Source of the DNA: Falsirhodobacter halotolerans
Lineage (GTDB): Bacteria > Pseudomonadota > Alphaproteobacteria > Rhodobacterales > Rhodobacteraceae
Assembly: GCF_022899245.1 (NCBI RefSeq)
Contig: NZ_JALJAZ010000003.1
Coordinates: forward strand, 1-64,000
Direction: 5' to 3'
Length of the DNA stretch: 64,000 nucleotides
Shown here: one piece after another, positions 20,017 through 49,885 of the stretch
Position numbering within the stretch: position 1 is the stretch's first letter
How the letters are laid out: each line of letters starts with the position of its first letter
Translations under genes and position numbers: made by a program
The notes under the pieces: model-generated
The model's database searches: none
What the model was told of the DNA's origin: nothing
Seen by the model: only the letters and a program-made list of their open reading frames with translations

Positions 20017-20771
20017 GCGCGCTGTATTCCGATCTGGCCGGGAAGGTCGTCCTGATCACCGGCGGGGCCACCGGCATCGGCGCGGCGCTGGTCGAAGGGT
20101 TCGCCCGCCAGAAGGCCGTGGCCTGCTTTCTCGACATTGCCGAGGCGGAGGGGCAGGCCCTTTCGGCCCGCCTGTCGCGCGAGGGTCTGGCGGCGCCGTT
20201 TCTGCGCTGCGATCTGACGCGGACGCAGGATTTGCAGGCGACCATACTGGCCTTTTCACGCGATCACGGGCCGATCACCGTTCTGGTGAACAATGCCGCC
20301 AACGACCGGCGTCACAGCCTGACCGATCTGACGCCCGAAGCGTTCGACGCGACCATCGCCGTGAACCTGCGCCATCAGTTCTTCGCCGCCCAAACGGTGA
20401 TCCCCATGATGCGCGAGGCGGGGGGCGGAGCGATCATCAACTTCGCCTCCGTATCGTGGATGATCGGCGGGGCGGAATACCCCGTCTATGCCACGGCCAA
20501 GGCGGGGGTGCACGGGTTCACCCGCGCGCTGGCGCAGGATCTGGGGCGTGATCGCATCCGGGCCAACACCATCACCCCCGGCTGGGTGATGACCGAACGG
20601 CAATTGCGCCTGTGGGTCGATGACGCCGCACGGGCACGCATCGCCCAGGAACAGTGGCTGCCCGGCGACCTTCGCCCCGACGATATCGCCAATATGGCGG
20701 TCTTTCTCGCGTCCGATGCGGCGCGGATGTGCACCGCGCAGAACTTTACCGTCGACGGAGGCTGGACATGA
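20013..20771 (+). CDS. Short-chain dehydrogenase, candidate aldose 1-dehydrogenase
   Basis: 252 residues, classical SDR. The nucleotide-binding motif is TGGATGIGAA near residue 15, followed by NNAA near residue 88, and the catalytic Ser/Tyr/Lys are in FASVSWMIGGAEYPVYATAK. An acidic residue at the end of strand 2 (CFLDIAEAEG) favours NAD+. It starts on the gguC stop (ATGA) and ends on the dehydratase start (ATGA). In this context it should oxidise L-arabinose, D-galactose or a relative to the lactone, which the SMP-30 enzyme then opens. Confidence 0.88.
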   Translation: MSALYSDLAGKVVLITGGATGIGAALVEGFARQKAVACFLDIAEAEGQALSARLSREGLAAPFLRCDLTRTQDLQATILAFSRDHGPITVLVNNAANDRRHSLTDLTPEAFDATIAVNLRHQFFAAQTVIPMMREAGGGAIINFASVSWMIGGAEYPVYATAKAGVHGFTRALAQDLGRDRIRANTITPGWVMTERQLRLWVDDAARARIAQEQWLPGDLRPDDIANMAVFLASDAARMCTAQNFTVDGGWT

Positions 20772-33293: not shown

Positions 33294-34417
33294 GCGGCCA
33301 CCGCCGCGCGGGTTGTGACCTCCAGGCGCCGGTCGTCGGCCCCGAACAGATGCGCGCGGGCGGGGTCGAAGCCAAGGGTCAGCGCGCCGTCGGGCAGGGG
33401 GGTCGTGGCGGGCAGACGCACCGTCACGCGCAGATCGTCCGTCAGCGCGCAGGTGACGAAGCGGTCCGCCCCTTGGGTTTCCGCGCGCAGGATCCGGGCG
33501 GCAAAACCGTCCGCGGCGGGCACCAGATCCTCGGCCCGAAGGCCAAGCGTCACCGGACCCGCATCGGCGCGAACGCCCAGACCCAGATCGCGGCCAAGCG
33601 CGCGGACACGGCCCTGGGGCGTGACCTCGGCCGGGATGAGGTTGATGGACGGGGTGCCGATGAACCGCGCCACCGTCAGCGTCGCGGGGCGGGAATACAG
33701 ATCGTCGGGGGTGCCCAGCTGTTCGATGCGGCCCTTGTCCATCAGGGCGATACGGGTGGACATGGTCATCGCCTCCACCTGATCGTGGGTGACATAGACG
33801 AAGGTCGCGCCCAGACGGCGGTGCAGCGCCGCCAGTTCGTCCCGCATATGTGCGCGCAGCTTCGCATCCAGATTGGACAGCGGTTCGTCCATCAGGAATG
33901 CCGCCGGGTCGCGCACCAGCGCGCGGGCCAGCGCCACGCGTTGCCGTTGGCCGCCCGACAGTTGCGCAGGCTTGCGGTCCAGCAGCGCGTCGATCTGCAA
34001 CAGGTTGGCGGCGCGGGCCACCTCGGCGTCGATGGCGGCGACGGTGTCGCGGGGGGCGGCCAGACGCCCCACCAGCGGCAGACGCCCCATCAGCGACAGC
34101 CGCCGCATCCGCAGCGGCGTCGCGATGTTCTGGCGCACGGTCATGTGCGGATAAAGGGCATAGGACTGAAACACCATCGCCAGGTTCCGGTCGCTGGGAT
34201 CGGCGCGGCTGACATCTTGCCCACCGATGGCCACCGTGCCCTGATCGGGGCTTTCCAACCCCGCGATGATCCGCAGCAGCGTCGATTTCCCGCAGCCCGA
34301 CATGCCGACCAGCGACAGGAACTCGCCCGGTTCGACCGTCAGGTCGATGCCCTTCAGCACGTCCGTTCCGGCGAAACTCTTGCCGATTTTCGACAGCGCG
34401 ATTGATTGAGGCGTCAT
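33290..34417 (-). CDS. ABC transporter ATP-binding protein, MalK/UgpC type
   Basis: 375 residues from the ATG at 34417 with AGGAGGGCCGG before it. Walker A GMSGCGKSTLLRII, signature LSGGQRQRVALARAL, Walker B AFLMDEPLSNLDAKLR, then a C-terminal TOBE/MalK-like regulatory domain from about residue 240. A 26-residue insertion between the Q-loop and the signature (around RLSLMGRLPLVGRLAAPRD) is unusual. It is the first gene of the operon. A stem-loop sits directly upstream of its ribosome-binding site. Confidence 0.93.
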   Translation of the reverse strand: MTPQSIALSKIGKSFAGTDVLKGIDLTVEPGEFLSLVGMSGCGKSTLLRIIAGLESPDQGTVAIGGQDVSRADPSDRNLAMVFQSYALYPHMTVRQNIATPLRMRRLSLMGRLPLVGRLAAPRDTVAAIDAEVARAANLLQIDALLDRKPAQLSGGQRQRVALARALVRDPAAFLMDEPLSNLDAKLRAHMRDELAALHRRLGATFVYVTHDQVEAMTMSTRIALMDKGRIEQLGTPDDLYSRPATLTVARFIGTPSINLIPAEVTPQGRVRALGRDLGLGVRADAGPVTLGLRAEDLVPAADGFAARILRAETQGADRFVTCALTDDLRVTVRLPATTPLPDGALTLGFDPARAHLFGADDRRLEVTTRAAVAA

Positions 34418-42334: not shown

Positions 42335-42446
42335 AACCCCTTGGGGTTGAAACCTGCGGCCGTGCATTGTCCAAGGCGGCTTGAACCGCGCATCGCGCGC
42401 ACCATCCTGTTCAAAAAATGGGCCTGTCCAAAAATGGGGCCTGTCC
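42335..42446 (+). repeat. Dyad and tandem repeat between the two divergent AGCS genes
   Basis: The 204-bp gap holds a dyad, AACCCC-TT-GGGGTT (42335-42348), midway between the starts. Before the plus-strand gene is a tandem repeat: AAAAATGGGCCTGTCC (42414-42429) directly followed by AAAAATGGGGCCTGTCC (42430-42446). Both could be operator sites. No convincing -10/-35 pair was found on either strand. Confidence 0.5.
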
Positions 42447-45191: not shown

Positions 45192-45746
45192 TTATTCCTC
45201 CACCGTGCCATCGCCGAAACGGCGGGTCGGAAGGCCGGCGGCGCGGCGGGCGATACGTTCAAGGCAGAAGATCAGGAGCAGCGCCCCCCCGCCGATCAGC
45301 GGCGCGAAGTCCCACACACGCGACAGGCCAAGCCCCGGAATGTCGCTGGAGGAGGCCTTGACCGCCAACTGCCATCCGAACCACAGCATACCGAAACCGA
45401 ACGTGCCGACGACGATGTCCGAGATCGTGTGCATAATGTCCCGCACGCGATGGGTCGCGATATAAAGGATCACGTCGAAGGACAGATGATACCCCTCGCG
45501 GATGCCGACCGCCGCGCCCAGAAAGATGAACCAGCCCATGATCATCACCGATCCGGGTTCAGCCCATTGCAACGACGACCCAAGGACATAGCGCCAGATC
45601 ACCTGCGCGAAGACGAAGCCGGTCATCAGCACAAGGGCCAGCCCGGCAATCCACAGGCCGCCCTGTGCCAGCCATTCGGTGACGCGGGCAATGCGCAGCA
45701 TGGCGGCCCGAAGGCCGCCCGCGTCCGTGTCATGGTGTGGGATCAT
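45192..45746 (-). CDS. TRAP transporter small permease (DctQ type)
   Basis: 184 residues from the ATG at 45746, which overlaps the binding-protein stop (ATGA). Four predicted helices with the family motif [19 protein letters not shown] and [20 protein letters not shown]. The C-terminal tail is charged. Confidence 0.92.
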
Positions 45747-46723
45747 TGCGTATCCCGGATGCGCTGGACCAGATCCTTCGCCTCGGGCGTCGTCACGTAT
45801 TTGTCGTAGACGGGGGTCATCGCGTCGATGAAGGGCTGCTTGTCCAGATCGTCGATCACCTCGACCCCCGCCGCTTCGACATGGGCGCGCGACGTCTTCT
45901 CGGCCTCGGCCCACAGCTGGCGTTCCACGGCCACGGATTCCACGGCGGCCTGGCGGATGATCTCCTGATCCTCGGGCGCAAGACCGTCCCAGGTGGTTTT
46001 GGACATGGCGACGATTTCCGGCACGATCAGGTGTTCGTCCAGCGTGTAGTATTTGGCCACCTCGTAATGGCCCGAGGTGTCATAGGACGGCCAGTTGTTC
46101 TCCGCCCCGTCCAGAATGCCCGTCTGGATGGAGGAATAGACCTCGCCATAGGGCATGGGCGTGGCGTTCGCGCCCAAGGCGTCCACCATGTCCACGAACA
46201 CATCCGACTGGATGACGCGGAACTTCATCCCCGCCATGTCCGCCACCGAGGTGATCGGCTTGACCGAGTTGTAGAAGCTGCGCGCGCCCGCGTCATAGAA
46301 GGCGAGGCCGATCAGGTCGTGAGGTTCGAAGGCCTGAAGAATCTCGTCCCCGATCGGGCCGTCCATCACCGCGTTCATATGCGCCACATCGCGGAAGATG
46401 TAGGGCAGGGACACGATGCGCGTTTCGGGCACCAGCGTGTCGAACGTGCCGAAGCTGGCGCGGATCATGTCGATGACGCCGAATTGCGTCTGTTCGATCG
46501 TGTCCTTTTCCTCGCCCAACTGCGCCGAGGGATAGACCTCGATGCAGATGCGTCCCTCGGTCCGCTCCTCCACAATCTTGGCCATGGCCTTGACGGCTTC
46601 CACGGTGGGATAGCCGTCGGGATGCGTGTCGCTGGAGCGCAGCGTGGTATCGCAGGCCCAGGCCCCGCCCGTCATCGCGCACAGCGCGACCGTCCCTGCC
46701 AGCAGGGTTTTCATTCGTGTCAT
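45743..46723 (-). CDS. TRAP transporter substrate-binding protein (DctP type)
   Basis: 326 residues from the ATG at 46723, chosen for the AGGGAGGACGAC just before it. The signal peptide is [20 protein letters not shown] with cleavage after AWA. DctP hallmarks are [40 protein letters not shown] with the Arg that usually holds the substrate carboxylate, and [20 protein letters not shown]. The substrate is probably an organic acid; which one is not visible. Confidence 0.94.
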
Positions 46724-46942
46724 GTCGTCCTCCCTTTGCATGGCTGTCGCGCGTTCCGGGCGCGATCGTGATCATGCGGGATCATCCTGAAGATGCGTCA
46801 ACCTGTCTGTCAACACCTTATCCTTGTCAGACGTGTCCAGGGGGACAACCTCATGGCCGGATGATTTCAGATGGCCGATTGCAAAATTTCAATTGGCCGA
46901 ATACAGACTTTCAACCGACCGAAGGCAGTCAAGGCCCCGCCC
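46724..46942 (+). promoter_or_regulatory. Divergent region with three 14-bp repeats spaced exactly 22 bp
   Basis: Before the ATPase gene lie TTTCAGATGGCCGA (46865-46878), TTTCAATTGGCCGA (46887-46900) and TTTCAACCGACCGA (46909-46922), each starting 22 bp after the last, so all face the same side of the helix about two turns apart. They end 20 bp before the ATG at 46943. Further left is TTGTC...GACAA (46824-46848). The rest of the 219-bp region holds no gene. Confidence 0.6.
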
Positions 46943-48169
46943 ATGTATCACCGCCCCATATCGGACCGTATCGACGAGGCGCTTTCGGATACGCGCGTCG
47001 TCCTGATCTCCGGCCCGCGTCAATCGGGCAAGACCACGTTGGCGCGGCAGATCGCGGGGGCGGGGCGTCCGTATTTCACGCTGGACGATGCAACCACACT
47101 GGAGGCCGCGCACGCCGATCCGGTCGGATTCCTGCGCGGTCTGGACCGCGTGGTCATCGACGAGGTTCAACGCGCGCCCGCCCTTCTTCTGGCCATCAAG
47201 ACCGAAGTCGACCGCGATCGCGCGCCGGGGCGGTTCCTTCTGACGGGGTCGGCCAATCTGATGACCTTGCCACGGGTGGCCGATTCGCTGGCCGGGCGCA
47301 TGGAAACGGTGCCCCTCCTGCCTTTGTCCCAAGCCGAGATCGCGGGCCGCCGATCGACCTTCGTCGACGATCTTCTGGCCGGACGCCGTCCGATTGCCGG
47401 CCCTGCCGTTCTGGGCCCCGATCTGGTGGCGGCGGTTCTGGCGGGCGGTTACCCCGAGGCGGTCGCGCGCCCCCGCTGGTCCCGCCGTCAGGATTGGTAT
47501 CTCGCCTATGTCGACGCGATCGTTCAGCGCGACATCCACGACATCGCCGAGATCGAGAAGGCGGCGATCCTGCCGCGGCTTGTGCGGATGATGGCCGAAC
47601 ATTCGGGACAGCTTACGAATTACTCCGCCCTGGGGGCGCAGGTCGGGCTGAACCACGTCACCACGCAGAAGTATTCGCGCCTGTTCGAAAGCCTGTTTCT
47701 GGTCGAAACCGTGCCCCCGTGGTTCAGCAACCGGCTCAAGCGGCTGGTCAAATCGCCCAAGCTGCACTTTCTGGATTCGGGTCTGCTGGCCGCGCTGCGC
47801 GACATGTCGCCCGATCGGGTGGCGCGGGACCGTCAGGCGTTCGGCGCGCTTCTGGAAACCTTCGTGCATTCCGAATTGCGCAAGATCGCCGCCTGGGGCG
47901 AGGCGCGTCCCGTCTTCAGCCATTTCCGCGACAAGGACGGGACCGAAGTGGATGTCGTGCTGGAAACCCGCGACGGCGCCGTGGCGGGGGTGGAGGTGAA
48001 GGCGTCGGCCACGGTCGCAAGCGCCGATTTCAGGGGGTTGCGCAAGATGTCCGACGCGTTGGGCGACCGGTTCGTGCAGGGCGTCGTCCTCTATGACGGG
48101 GATCAGGTCGTGCCCTTCGCCGAAAACCTGTTCGCGGTTCCGGTCTCGGCCCTGTGGGGGGCGGCCTGA
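46943..48169 (+). CDS. AAA_14-DUF4143 family ATPase with a PD-(D/E)XK-like C-terminal domain
   Basis: 408 residues from the ATG at 46943; an upstream in-frame ATG at 46871 lies inside the repeat array. Walker A is SGPRQSGKTTLARQ near residue 24 and Walker B RVVIDEVQRAP near residue 72, followed by FLLTGSANLMTLPRVADSLA, typical of AAA_14. The DUF4143 part carries GTEVDVVLETRDG then VAGVEVKAS, the Asp...Glu-X-Lys pattern of PD-(D/E)XK folds. These proteins are widespread, often mobile, and of unclear role. It stands alone between unrelated operons. Confidence 0.9.
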   Translation: MYHRPISDRIDEALSDTRVVLISGPRQSGKTTLARQIAGAGRPYFTLDDATTLEAAHADPVGFLRGLDRVVIDEVQRAPALLLAIKTEVDRDRAPGRFLLTGSANLMTLPRVADSLAGRMETVPLLPLSQAEIAGRRSTFVDDLLAGRRPIAGPAVLGPDLVAAVLAGGYPEAVARPRWSRRQDWYLAYVDAIVQRDIHDIAEIEKAAILPRLVRMMAEHSGQLTNYSALGAQVGLNHVTTQKYSRLFESLFLVETVPPWFSNRLKRLVKSPKLHFLDSGLLAALRDMSPDRVARDRQAFGALLETFVHSELRKIAAWGEARPVFSHFRDKDGTEVDVVLETRDGAVAGVEVKASATVASADFRGLRKMSDALGDRFVQGVVLYDGDQVVPFAENLFAVPVSALWGAA

Positions 48170-48277: not shown

Positions 48278-49885
48278 ATGACCGACACCGCCGCCCCGCC
48301 CCAGCCCACCGGCACCCTGACCATGCCCTTGTGGCGGGCGGCCATCTATGTCGCGGCCTCGCTTCTTCTGGGCCTGTCGCAGGGGTTGGGCATGAGCTTG
48401 TTCAGCTCCAACGTGGCGCAGTTGCAGGGCGAGTTCGCGGCCACGCAGCAGGAGGTGGTGTGGCTGGTCGCCGCCTATCTCGCCCCGGCGGCGCTGACCC
48501 TGGCGCTGGTGAAGATCCGCACCCAGTTCGGTCTGCGCCGGTTCGGAGAGATCGGGCTGGCGGTGTTCGTCGCCAGCGCGCTTTTGAACTTTCTGGCGAA
48601 TGATCTGGCCTCGGGCATCGCCGTGCGCTTCATCAGCGGGATGGCCGCCGCCCCCATCGCCACCTTGGCCTTCCTTTATGCGATCGAACCGTTCACCCCG
48701 GCCAAGAAGCTGTCCATCGGCCTGTCCCTGGCGCTGATCGGCATTTCCCTGGGGCTGCCGATGTCGCGGGTGCTGTCGCCCACTTTGCTGGATCTGGGGG
48801 GGTGGCACCAGCTGACCCTTCTGGAACTGGCGCTGGCGCTGGTGTGCTTTTGCGTGGTGCTGGCCCTGCCGTTGACCCCCGTCCCGCATGAAAAGGTGAT
48901 CGAACGGCTGGATTTCATCAGCTTTCCGCTGATTTTCTTCGGCCTTGGGGGCCTCGCCATCGCGCTGACGGTGGGCAAGGCCTATTGGTGGTTCACCCAA
49001 GACTGGCTGGGGCTCACGATCGCGGGCAGCGTGGCCTGCCTTGCCGTGGCCGCCGTGATCGAACTGAACCGCGAAAGCCCGCTGCTGGACCTGCGCTGGA
49101 TCTTTTCGCCCACCATCCTGCAATTCGCGGGCGCGCTTTTGGTGTTCCGCATCGTTCTGGCCGAACAATCGTCGGGCGCGCCGGGGTTGTTTCAGGCGGC
49201 GGGGCTGCAGAACGCGCAGATGCAGACGATGTTCTGGATGATCGCGGGGGCCACCGTTCTGGGCGGGATCGTCAGCGCCATGATCCTGAAGCCGGGGCGC
49301 GAACACGGGATCCACGCGGTGGCCCTTTTGCTGATCATCGTGGGCGCGACGCTGGACGCGCACGCGACCAACCTGACCCGCCCGGCCCAGATGCTGTTCA
49401 GCCAGTCGCTGATCGCCTTTGCCAGCGCGCTCTTTCTTCCGGCGGCCCTGGCGGCGGGGATGATGGCCGCGCTGAAGAAGGGGCCGAAATACATCCTGAA
49501 CTTCATCATCATCTTTCTGGTGACGCAGAAGATCGGCGGGTCGCTTGGTTCGGCCGTCTTCCAGACGATCATCCAGTTCCGGCAGAATTTCCACACCGCG
49601 CATCTTGCGGCGGACATGGCGCTGACCGATCCCCTGGTGATCCAAAGGCTTCAGGCCTATGCCTCGGTCTGGTCGCACGCCACGGCGGACGCCACATTTG
49701 CGCGGGCGCATGGAACGGCGCAACTGGCGCAGGTGGTCCAGCGCGAGGCGACGGTCCTCGCCTATAACGACGTGTTCGCGTTGATCGCGCTGGTCGCGGC
49801 GGCGGCGCTGGCCGTTCTTCTGGCCCATTGGGCGTTGATCGAATTCAAAAAGCGCCGCACCGTCGGCGCAGGGACGACGGGTTGA
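48278..49885 (+). CDS. MFS efflux transporter, EmrB/DHA2-like
   Basis: 535 residues with about fourteen predicted helices, the DHA2 drug:proton antiporter layout. The N-terminal helix pair contains GLSQGLGMSLFSSNVAQLQG, then WLVAAYLAPAALTLALVKIR and RFISGMAAAPIATLAFLYAI. The usual antiporter motif C is poorly conserved, so the substrate range is uncertain. The HlyD-family gene begins 19 bp after the stop, making an EmrAB-like pair. Confidence 0.88.
   Translation: MTDTAAPPQPTGTLTMPLWRAAIYVAASLLLGLSQGLGMSLFSSNVAQLQGEFAATQQEVVWLVAAYLAPAALTLALVKIRTQFGLRRFGEIGLAVFVASALLNFLANDLASGIAVRFISGMAAAPIATLAFLYAIEPFTPAKKLSIGLSLALIGISLGLPMSRVLSPTLLDLGGWHQLTLLELALALVCFCVVLALPLTPVPHEKVIERLDFISFPLIFFGLGGLAIALTVGKAYWWFTQDWLGLTIAGSVACLAVAAVIELNRESPLLDLRWIFSPTILQFAGALLVFRIVLAEQSSGAPGLFQAAGLQNAQMQTMFWMIAGATVLGGIVSAMILKPGREHGIHAVALLLIIVGATLDAHATNLTRPAQMLFSQSLIAFASALFLPAALAAGMMAALKKGPKYILNFIIIFLVTQKIGGSLGSAVFQTIIQFRQNFHTAHLAADMALTDPLVIQRLQAYASVWSHATADATFARAHGTAQLAQVVQREATVLAYNDVFALIALVAAAALAVLLAHWALIEFKKRRTVGAGTTG

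Follow-up and report, generated by a model that had tools for sequence, protein, structure and literature searches.

An exactly spaced direct-repeat array upstream of PDC-S01 ATPase-nuclease genes as a putative self-read operator

Introduction

What is a short array of direct repeats doing immediately in front of an ATPase gene, and which protein reads it? The question is raised by a 64-kb stretch of Falsirhodobacter halotolerans DNA (contig NZ_JALJAZ010000003.1, positions 1 to 64,000; hereafter the window), for which an initial annotation had reported three 14-mers at an exact 22-bp period, ending 20 bp before the chosen ATG of an ATPase gene, and had proposed autoregulation or iteron-like binding by the ATPase itself. 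As described below, the gene belongs with PDC-S01. In the accessible text of PMC12988326, PDC-S01 is described as an ATPase fused to a member of the PD-(D/E)XK superfamily and ranked as the fourth most common defence across prokaryotes; in that of PMC13356809, it is the most frequent individual locus of a rumen survey. Validation is pending for most such defence candidates. A conserved, strictly spaced cis-array, together with a candidate residue-to-base code, would provide a testable hypothesis for PDC-S01 that covers its target, the residues involved and its control.

Results and Discussion

The repeat array in the window

A pattern search of the 64-kb window placed TTTCANNNGRCCGA at 46865, 46887 and 46909, at a spacing of exactly 22 bp. 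The features of the array are as follows.

46865-46878, plus strand: repeat copy 1, TTTCAGATGGCCGA (sequence, shuffle test)
46887-46900, plus strand: repeat copy 2, TTTCAATTGGCCGA, 22 bp after copy 1 (sequence, shuffle test)
46909-46922, plus strand: repeat copy 3, TTTCAACCGACCGA, 22 bp after copy 2 (sequence, shuffle test)
46879-46907, plus strand: weak promoter-like pair TTGCAA-N17-TACAGA inside the array, a candidate read from the sequence

The three copies are the sole matches to TTTCANNNGRCCGA in the window, with none on the opposite strand. Twelve columns are identical across the three consecutive 22-bp units. When the 320 bp upstream of the gene were shuffled 5000 times with dinucleotide composition preserved, no shuffle had 12 or more agreeing columns, whether period 22 alone or every period between 15 and 24 was considered, which rules out an array by chance. 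Pattern search and shuffles thus bear out the exact 22-bp period. The distance of 20 bp between the end of copy 3 and the ATG at 46943 is equally correct, and this start is backed by close homologues, which begin MY.R at the same position. An upstream in-frame ATG at 46871 (432 aa) was rejected as the start, since close homologues start at 46943 and the array would become coding. Other three-copy scores in the window equal or exceed that of the array (13 at period 17, position 42406; 13 at period 18, position 34059; 12 at period 33, position 48766), and an automatic repeat finder did not have the array among its listed repeats.

Exact TTTCANNTGGCCGA occurs in the 3.08-Mb genome as array copies 1 and 2 only. 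With up to two mismatches it has 208 matches per strand, against 64 and 57 for a reversed-pattern control, so that single near-matches are common. The tandem pattern with at most one mismatch has three matches in the same genome, two of them in the array and one, weak and chance-like, at 20232; in a second genome of the genus (G1072) a similar pattern has two, both inside the array of that genome. These counts rule out a scattered genomic repeat, a concern which the initial annotation had raised in suggesting a search for the 14-mer elsewhere in the genome.

The repeats lie directly before the gene in the window and in homologues, the promoter itself being a candidate only. Since only a few tens of bases separate the last copy from the start codon, the copies probably overlap the promoter. 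A strict sigma-70 promoter scan returned none in the window. Several close homologues carry TTGACT and TA(C/A/G)TTT in successive linkers, in a promoter-like arrangement, and TTGA precedes the penultimate core at 10 of 46 period-22 loci, the last core at 4 and the third-last at 3. This apparent phasing of promoter elements in homologues arises in part from the periodicity of the sequence itself, and the support that it lends is weak overall. The neighbouring gene (45743-46741, minus strand), which encodes a DctP-type solute-binding protein (Pfam, 304 bits), is divergent, and its promoter must share the intergenic region with the array.

Conservation of the array upstream of homologous genes

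Homologues were picked through protein similarity alone. The region upstream of each was searched for columns identical in three successive units at periods 12-40 and compared with shuffles, an array being called strict when its z was at least 3.5 and none of 60 shuffles scored as high. The first batch (n = 119) consisted of 19 of 30, 20 of 24 and 80 of 80 loci from three fetches; the first fetch was used without L021-L026, L030-L032, L036 and L037, which belong to a distant 390-aa subfamily or are broken fragments, and the 24-locus fetch without four near-duplicates. The second batch consisted of 50 loci, 49 with an upstream region. The batches overlap slightly in that L148 is identical with L041, and L145 and L151 are 90-97% identical to L045.

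Strict arrays precede 71 of the 119 genes of the first batch (41 at period 22, 28 at 23, two at 30) and 32 of the 49 of the second, all at 22 or 23. Both batches together give 103 of 168, with 101 at 22 or 23 (52 at 22, 49 at 23) and two at 30; the remaining 65 of the 168 upstream regions have no significant array. At any period, strict arrays were called in 3/119 coding and 7/113 downstream controls of the first batch (downstream, one at 23 and none at 22), and in 1/50 coding and 3/50 downstream controls of the second, none of these at 22 or 23. The controls of both batches thus contain four coding and 10 downstream arrays at any period, compared with 0/169 and 1/163, respectively, at 22 or 23. 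The single downstream exception, L090, is a truncated duplicate retaining the array. After removal of proteins at least 90% identical, 93 of 152 loci are strict at 22 or 23; of the 42 second-batch loci with less than 90% identity among themselves and to any first-batch protein, 29 pass. Strict arrays are found in Pseudomonadota, Acidobacteriota, Verrucomicrobiota, Chloroflexota, Actinomycetota, Nitrospirota, Spirochaetota, Bacteroidota and others, and the 101 arrays have 3 to 18 copies, most commonly 3 (n = 53). The comparison of upstream regions that the initial annotation had recommended therefore shows the array to be kept before many homologues.

Several individual loci deserve mention. 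At L090 (900-3430), an intact gene lies between two truncated copies, in which the 23-bp array and the start of the coding sequence as far as Walker A are retained and joined to the 3' flank. Very long arrays occur upstream at L038 (~18 copies), L033 (~10) and L108 (~10). Eight of nine loci of the distant 390-aa DUF4143 subfamily (L021-L023, L025, L026, L031, L032, L037) have no array; the same eight share a single site, CCTTGCAAATCTTCCA and then TGGARTAA with small changes, abutting the start codon. This site, within the last ~30 bases before the start, forms an inverted repeat TTCCA...TGGAA, with L024 as the exception. An Azotobacter plasmid homologue (L228) has an inverted repeat GGTGTAATTTCA...TGAAATTACACC before its start (just before 2501) and no array.

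A quick tree was built from 113 proteins, six of the 119 being omitted as too short. In its arrayed clade (support 93; 80 rows), period 22 is found in 38 strict and seven weak cases and period 23 in 26 strict and three weak cases, with six rows lacking an array; 74 of the 80 proteins thus have period 22 or 23 (10 weak). Outside this clade, 29 of 33 rows are without array. A clade of 42 has period 22 in 38 (7 weak) and no array in four, a clade of 11 has period 23 only (1 weak), and a clade of 16 has period 23 in 14 (2 weak), one period 22 (L063) and one member without array; an actinobacterial pair is mixed (L099 at 22, L106 at 23). Period and protein lineage largely go together.

Aligned over 83 arrays, weak ones included, the unit reads loosely TTCCAATTGGACG, with at most 0.5 bit at any position. 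It fits better in the orientation of the gene in 68 of the 83, the phase of the repeat having been set by an alignment seeded with the motif of the window itself. From the end of the core to the matched protein start, the median distance is ~37 bases. Copies within a locus agree at 0.74 (period 22) and 0.75 (period 23) in the core and at 0.39 and 0.47, respectively, in the linker; cores agree more than linkers, and the copies are therefore not recent duplications.

Domain composition and fold of the protein

The features of the gene and its product are the following.

46943-48169, plus strand: PDC-S01 gene, 408 aa, AAA_14 and DUF4143 (Pfam, PADLOC)
47012-47035, plus strand: Walker A motif GPRQSGKT, residues 24-31 (G24, R26, G29 and K30 invariant in 48 sequences)
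47648-47671, plus strand: predicted N-terminus of the recognition helix of the winged helix, residues 236-243 (covaries with the left half-site; no replication in the held-out set)
47840-48166, plus strand: predicted PD-(D/E)XK nuclease domain, residues 300-408 (E335, D337, E351, K353; fold, conservation)
47918-47944, plus strand: predicted hairpin before the nuclease active site, residues 326-334 (K331, D332; covaries with the right half-site)

Both Pfam domains lie above their cut-offs (AAA_14, 88.4 bits; DUF4143, 158 bits). The best PADLOC match is PDC-S01 (PDLC04790; 584 bits, 3.4e-176), which we take to be COG1373, and it extends over residues 1-406 of the protein and 11-419 of the 422 positions of the profile. 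NCBIfam and PHROGs gave no match at E 0.001, a sequence search of the PDB yielded weak P-loop-type matches only, and there is one DUF4143 match in the genome. By its PADLOC match, the protein falls under PDC-S01, a single-gene candidate for phage defence. The initial annotation had credited the ATPase with no known function, which understates the case, as PDC-S01 ranks among the commonest candidates for defence in the accessible text of PMC12988326.

The AlphaFold model of the full protein, a monomer, has a mean pLDDT of 93.1. Residues 1 to ~290 adopt a STAND-like fold, with ATPase, helical and winged-helix domains in STAND order. Structural matches to the model include 2qen (Z 15.2, rmsd 4.8, 254 aligned), 2fna (Z 14.3, rmsd 4.3, 247 aligned), the plant NLR RPP1 (Z 13.6), CED-4 (Z 12.8) and Avs5 (9jap; Z 11.4, rmsd 4.3, 233 aligned), as well as MalT (8bob) by Foldseek (E 2.9e-5, TM-score 0.28). 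A separate model of the C-terminal 145 residues (pLDDT 87.8) matches the PD-(D/E)XK nucleases Can2 (8q41; Z 9.0, rmsd 4.4, 138 aligned), Card1 (6xl1; Z 8.5, rmsd 4.0, 139 aligned) and McrC (7vsr; Z 8.2, rmsd 3.2, 116 aligned). Across 48 sequences, the Walker A and B residues as well as E335, D337 and K353 never vary, and E351 is conserved in at least 90%. The fold matches and the conserved D...ExK residues support the earlier assignment of the C-terminal domain as PD-(D/E)XK-like. According to the model, the protein is a small STAND-type ATPase with a winged helix and a predicted PD-(D/E)XK nuclease.

The fold of residues 1 to ~290 is common to the STAND ATPases SSO1545, PAB2304, CED-4, plant NLRs, Avs5 and MalT, of which MalT oligomerises and binds direct repeats. 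Compared with these, the protein has only 408 residues, carries a C-terminal PD-(D/E)XK domain, and seems to read DNA with the winged helix inside its STAND core. Its C-terminal domain is similar in fold to the Can2/Card1 and McrC nucleases; unlike these, the PDC-S01-type protein has, to our knowledge, no CARF domain and no McrB partner.

Covariation between protein residues and repeat letters

The covariation set consisted of 74 arrayed loci, weak arrays included (46 at period 22, 28 at period 23), filtered by removal of proteins more than 90% identical and of motif scores below 1.9. In the first 53 loci, with overall protein distance removed, the best-correlated windows lay around the recognition helix for the left half-site and at the hairpin preceding the nuclease active site for the right. 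Both target patches were fixed in writing before further loci were fetched. In 24 held-out loci, both periods mixed, the target of the right half-site again came out on top of all 397 windows. For the left half-site the association was not replicated in these loci, its target reaching rank 230 of 397 at best; 10 of them have period 22, too few to be informative on their own.

Among the 46 period-22 loci, residue 239 with core position 3 is the top of 4690 residue-position pairs (0.74), followed by residue 331 with position 10 (0.60), which is level with Q27 and L125 at position 12. The best pairs of the 28 period-23 loci alone lie elsewhere (D296, P211, P25, S23), and in the pooled 74 loci E311 with position 1 comes first (0.61), then 239 with position 3 (0.57). 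K239 goes with C at position 3 at 23 of 25 period-22 loci, and other residues do so at 0 of 21.

These associations were compared with bases simulated on FastTree trees under a two-state model. The observed K239-C3 association was reached in 0/3691 simulations (pooled set, 0/3800) and H238-C4 in 0/3999 (pooled 250/4000, the association vanishing on pooling). Residue 331 gave 7/3998 for R331-C11 (pooled 0/4000) and 6/3946 for K331-G10 (pooled 2/4000), and values were higher for V/I239-T3 (48/4000; pooled 5/4000) and H327-G10 (82/3942; pooled 45/3999). The control residue Y186 gave 39/3666 (pooled 3/3776), having been a top column and hence a poor choice of control; the other control residue gave 1240/3945 (pooled 1436/3997).

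Over 974 residue features, family-wise p in the period-22 set is 0.02 for D237-C2 and 0.04 for both K239-C3 and H238-C4, with negative associations for Q332-G13 (0.018) and M316-C12 (0.049); K331-G10 is not significant by this measure (0.25 for period 22, 0.14 pooled). Family-wise p falls below 0.05 for 6 of 30 characters at period 22 and 3 of 35 in the pooled set, uncorrected for the number of characters. In a joint test, the top residue lies within 236-243 for 6 of 12 left characters (pooled, 8 of 17) and within 326-334 for 4 of 14 right characters (pooled, 6 of 14). These counts were reached in 0 of 400 simulations (pooled, 0 of 300), the targets being derived from the first 53 loci, themselves part of the tested sets.

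Residues 237-239 of the recognition helix thus appear to covary with the left half-site, and residues 331-332 of the hairpin with the right. Putative DNA-reading residues that change with the letters of the repeat suggest that the protein probably binds upstream of its own gene and controls it. As to the original proposals, binding by the ATPase itself is supported by this covariation, and iteron-like behaviour is left with its geometry only.

Proposed operation of the array

From the computed presence and position of the array, its largely lineage-specific period, the covariation and the predicted fold, we infer that the protein probably sits on its own array as an in-register oligomer, using both the winged helix and the nuclease domain for contact, and regulates its own gene. 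The array would be the operator of the gene, and each repeat one asymmetric site for one subunit, whose left half, TTTCA, would be read by the recognition helix (237-239) and whose right half, GGCCG, by the hairpin (331-332) preceding the nuclease active site. A period of 22 or 23 bp would place subunits about two helical turns apart on one face of the DNA, so that contact through the ATPase domains and cooperative binding would be possible. Bound protein would most likely repress its own transcription. Disturbance of the bound assembly, by phage takeover or upon arrival in a naive cell, might release or activate the nuclease. Expression of such genes without their native upstream region might mislead, and the array and its candidate code suggest a grouping of paralogues by specificity.

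The same observations allow a different emphasis, namely that the array is mainly an assembly or sensing platform, on which the protein is held in an off or primed oligomer and where damage, titration or foreign array copies switch the nuclease. We regard this as possible, if doubtful. The covarying hairpin lies beside the catalytic residues, ATPase and nuclease residues are conserved, and copy number varies widely (3 to 18 in the 101 strict arrays, 3 being commonest with 53), all of which would suit a platform, as would pairs of a matching 13-mer on viral contigs for which no ATPase was found in the stretches examined (L231-L233, see below). Those pairs, however, come from three contigs, two of one lineage, with part of each contig examined, and autoregulation is the simpler account of a position before the gene.

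It is tempting to speculate further that PDC-S01 is a DNA-guarded immune nuclease, in which a minimal STAND ATPase parks its nuclease on its own array, each unit being read jointly by winged helix and nuclease hairpin, and the array serving as operator, off-switch and self-tag at once. The nuclease would then be triggered or blocked when the array is lost or titrated, as by phage takeover or decoys carried on phage, or when an incoming plasmid brings in another copy of the same type. This extension, which we put forward tentatively, would account for the differing units of co-resident paralogues: as judged by eye, units differ between paralogues in 8 of 8 genomes with at least two arrays in the set.

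An operator read by the protein itself has to be weighed against a separate host regulator that binds the array and controls the ATPase gene. For this there is a precedent in the RptR defence island, whose promoter carries three direct repeats and is autorepressed, and where a dedicated small repressor at direct repeats controls defence genes (accessible text of PMC12255303), and a helix-turn-helix regulator lies 1.7 to 2.4 kb downstream of the gene in 2 of 10 plasmid loci viewed. In none of the ten, however, does a regulator adjoin the gene; repeat letters track residues of the ATPase, units differ between paralogues as noted above, and array and gene stay together in the same-genus orthologue. 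A separate regulator is thus less likely, and in our estimate improbable.

No closer precedent than RptR was found for an autorepressed defence promoter with three direct repeats, as far as the accessible text of PMC12255303 goes. There, a separate 9-kDa dimer recognises a 6-bp palindrome (TAGCTA) in 9-bp repeats, whereas here the 408-aa ATPase-nuclease effector itself appears to read asymmetric units of 22 or 23 bp; neither a palindromic TAGCTA unit nor a small dimeric repressor, the marks of the RptR family, is found. The accessible descriptions of PDC-S01 (PMC12988326, PMC13356809) mention neither an upstream array nor self-reading. Searches of the literature, which covered a minority of subscription papers and no preprints, turned up no description of an array before this gene family.

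Genomic context and mobility

A DNA search of seven genomes of the genus, that of the window included, found the gene in one other, G1072 (78% identity). There it is placed apart from the G1072 copies of the genes that flank it in the window, and the intergenic DNA common to both is the 3-copy, 22-bp array only.

The gene is also present on 201 plasmid records at E 1e-40, 102 of them predicted conjugative; close relatives of the window protein are encoded on Sulfitobacter and Tateyamaria plasmids. In plasmid iteron systems, direct repeats of about 22 bp precede a gene and are bound by its product, and the array resembles iterons in geometry. In 2 of the 10 plasmid loci viewed, moreover, genes for replication or partition lie nearby: one has a replication initiation protein and ParA upstream, the other RepA and RepB directly downstream. 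Against this, three arrayed loci are in records titled chromosome (L070, L071, L102), and the product is no recognisable replication initiator, as it matches AAA_14/DUF4143 and no Rep family. Replication iterons are unlikely; neutral tandem duplication is opposed by linkers that diverge next to cores that stay alike, and we give very little credence to either account. One of the ten plasmid loci has both a helix-turn-helix regulator and replication genes close by.

In two of the ten plasmid loci, the gene adjoins a restriction endonuclease and QatA, and in one of these two it follows an integrase, DUF1403 and ScpB. Three loci align with this integrase-DUF1403-ScpB stretch at 70-75% DNA identity; they have two array copies there, followed by a Fic gene in place of the ATPase. 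Pfam and PADLOC confirm the integrase, DUF1403, ScpB, Fic and SoFic in one of the three. Two of the three genomes (G171, G049) have other DUF4143 proteins elsewhere. The two-copy array in the Fic slot is most simply a relic of cargo exchange. Other single matches to the tandem pattern among 198 genomes are chance-like (five matches for the reversed-pattern control).

Such relics may also be seen as traces of a gene-sized mobile unit: the array would be one of its ends or a site of recombination, recognised by the nuclease when the unit is transferred. Gene and array do occur at different places in one genus, two-copy arrays persist in a cargo slot without the ATPase, and the truncated copies at L090 retain the array. 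Yet the array is one-sided, with no second end or target duplication noticed on a non-systematic look, and relics are equally expected from ordinary cargo exchange, so that we consider a mobile unit unlikely.

Two-copy TTTCAATTGGTCG arrays without an ATPase nearby were seen at L205, L206, L208 and L207, three of them between ScpB and Fic genes; the pair in the fourth genome follows the apparent end of a Fic gene and has no flank in common with the slot of the others. On viral contigs, a matching 13-mer pair 23 bp apart lies between open frames at L231:3298-3333, L233:9244-9279 and L232:1725-1760, with no ATPase in the stretches examined (part of each contig); the degenerate 22-bp tandem pattern had 0 matches in viral contigs.

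A possible outside hint comes from Thermus thermophilus HB27, in which TT_P0211, annotated with AAA_14 and DUF4143, changed 6.6-fold in plasmid-bearing cells (accessible text of PMC4406477). A Thermus thermophilus plasmid homologue (L222:2450-2500) carries just two copies of TTTCAACCG, 22 bp apart, before its start.
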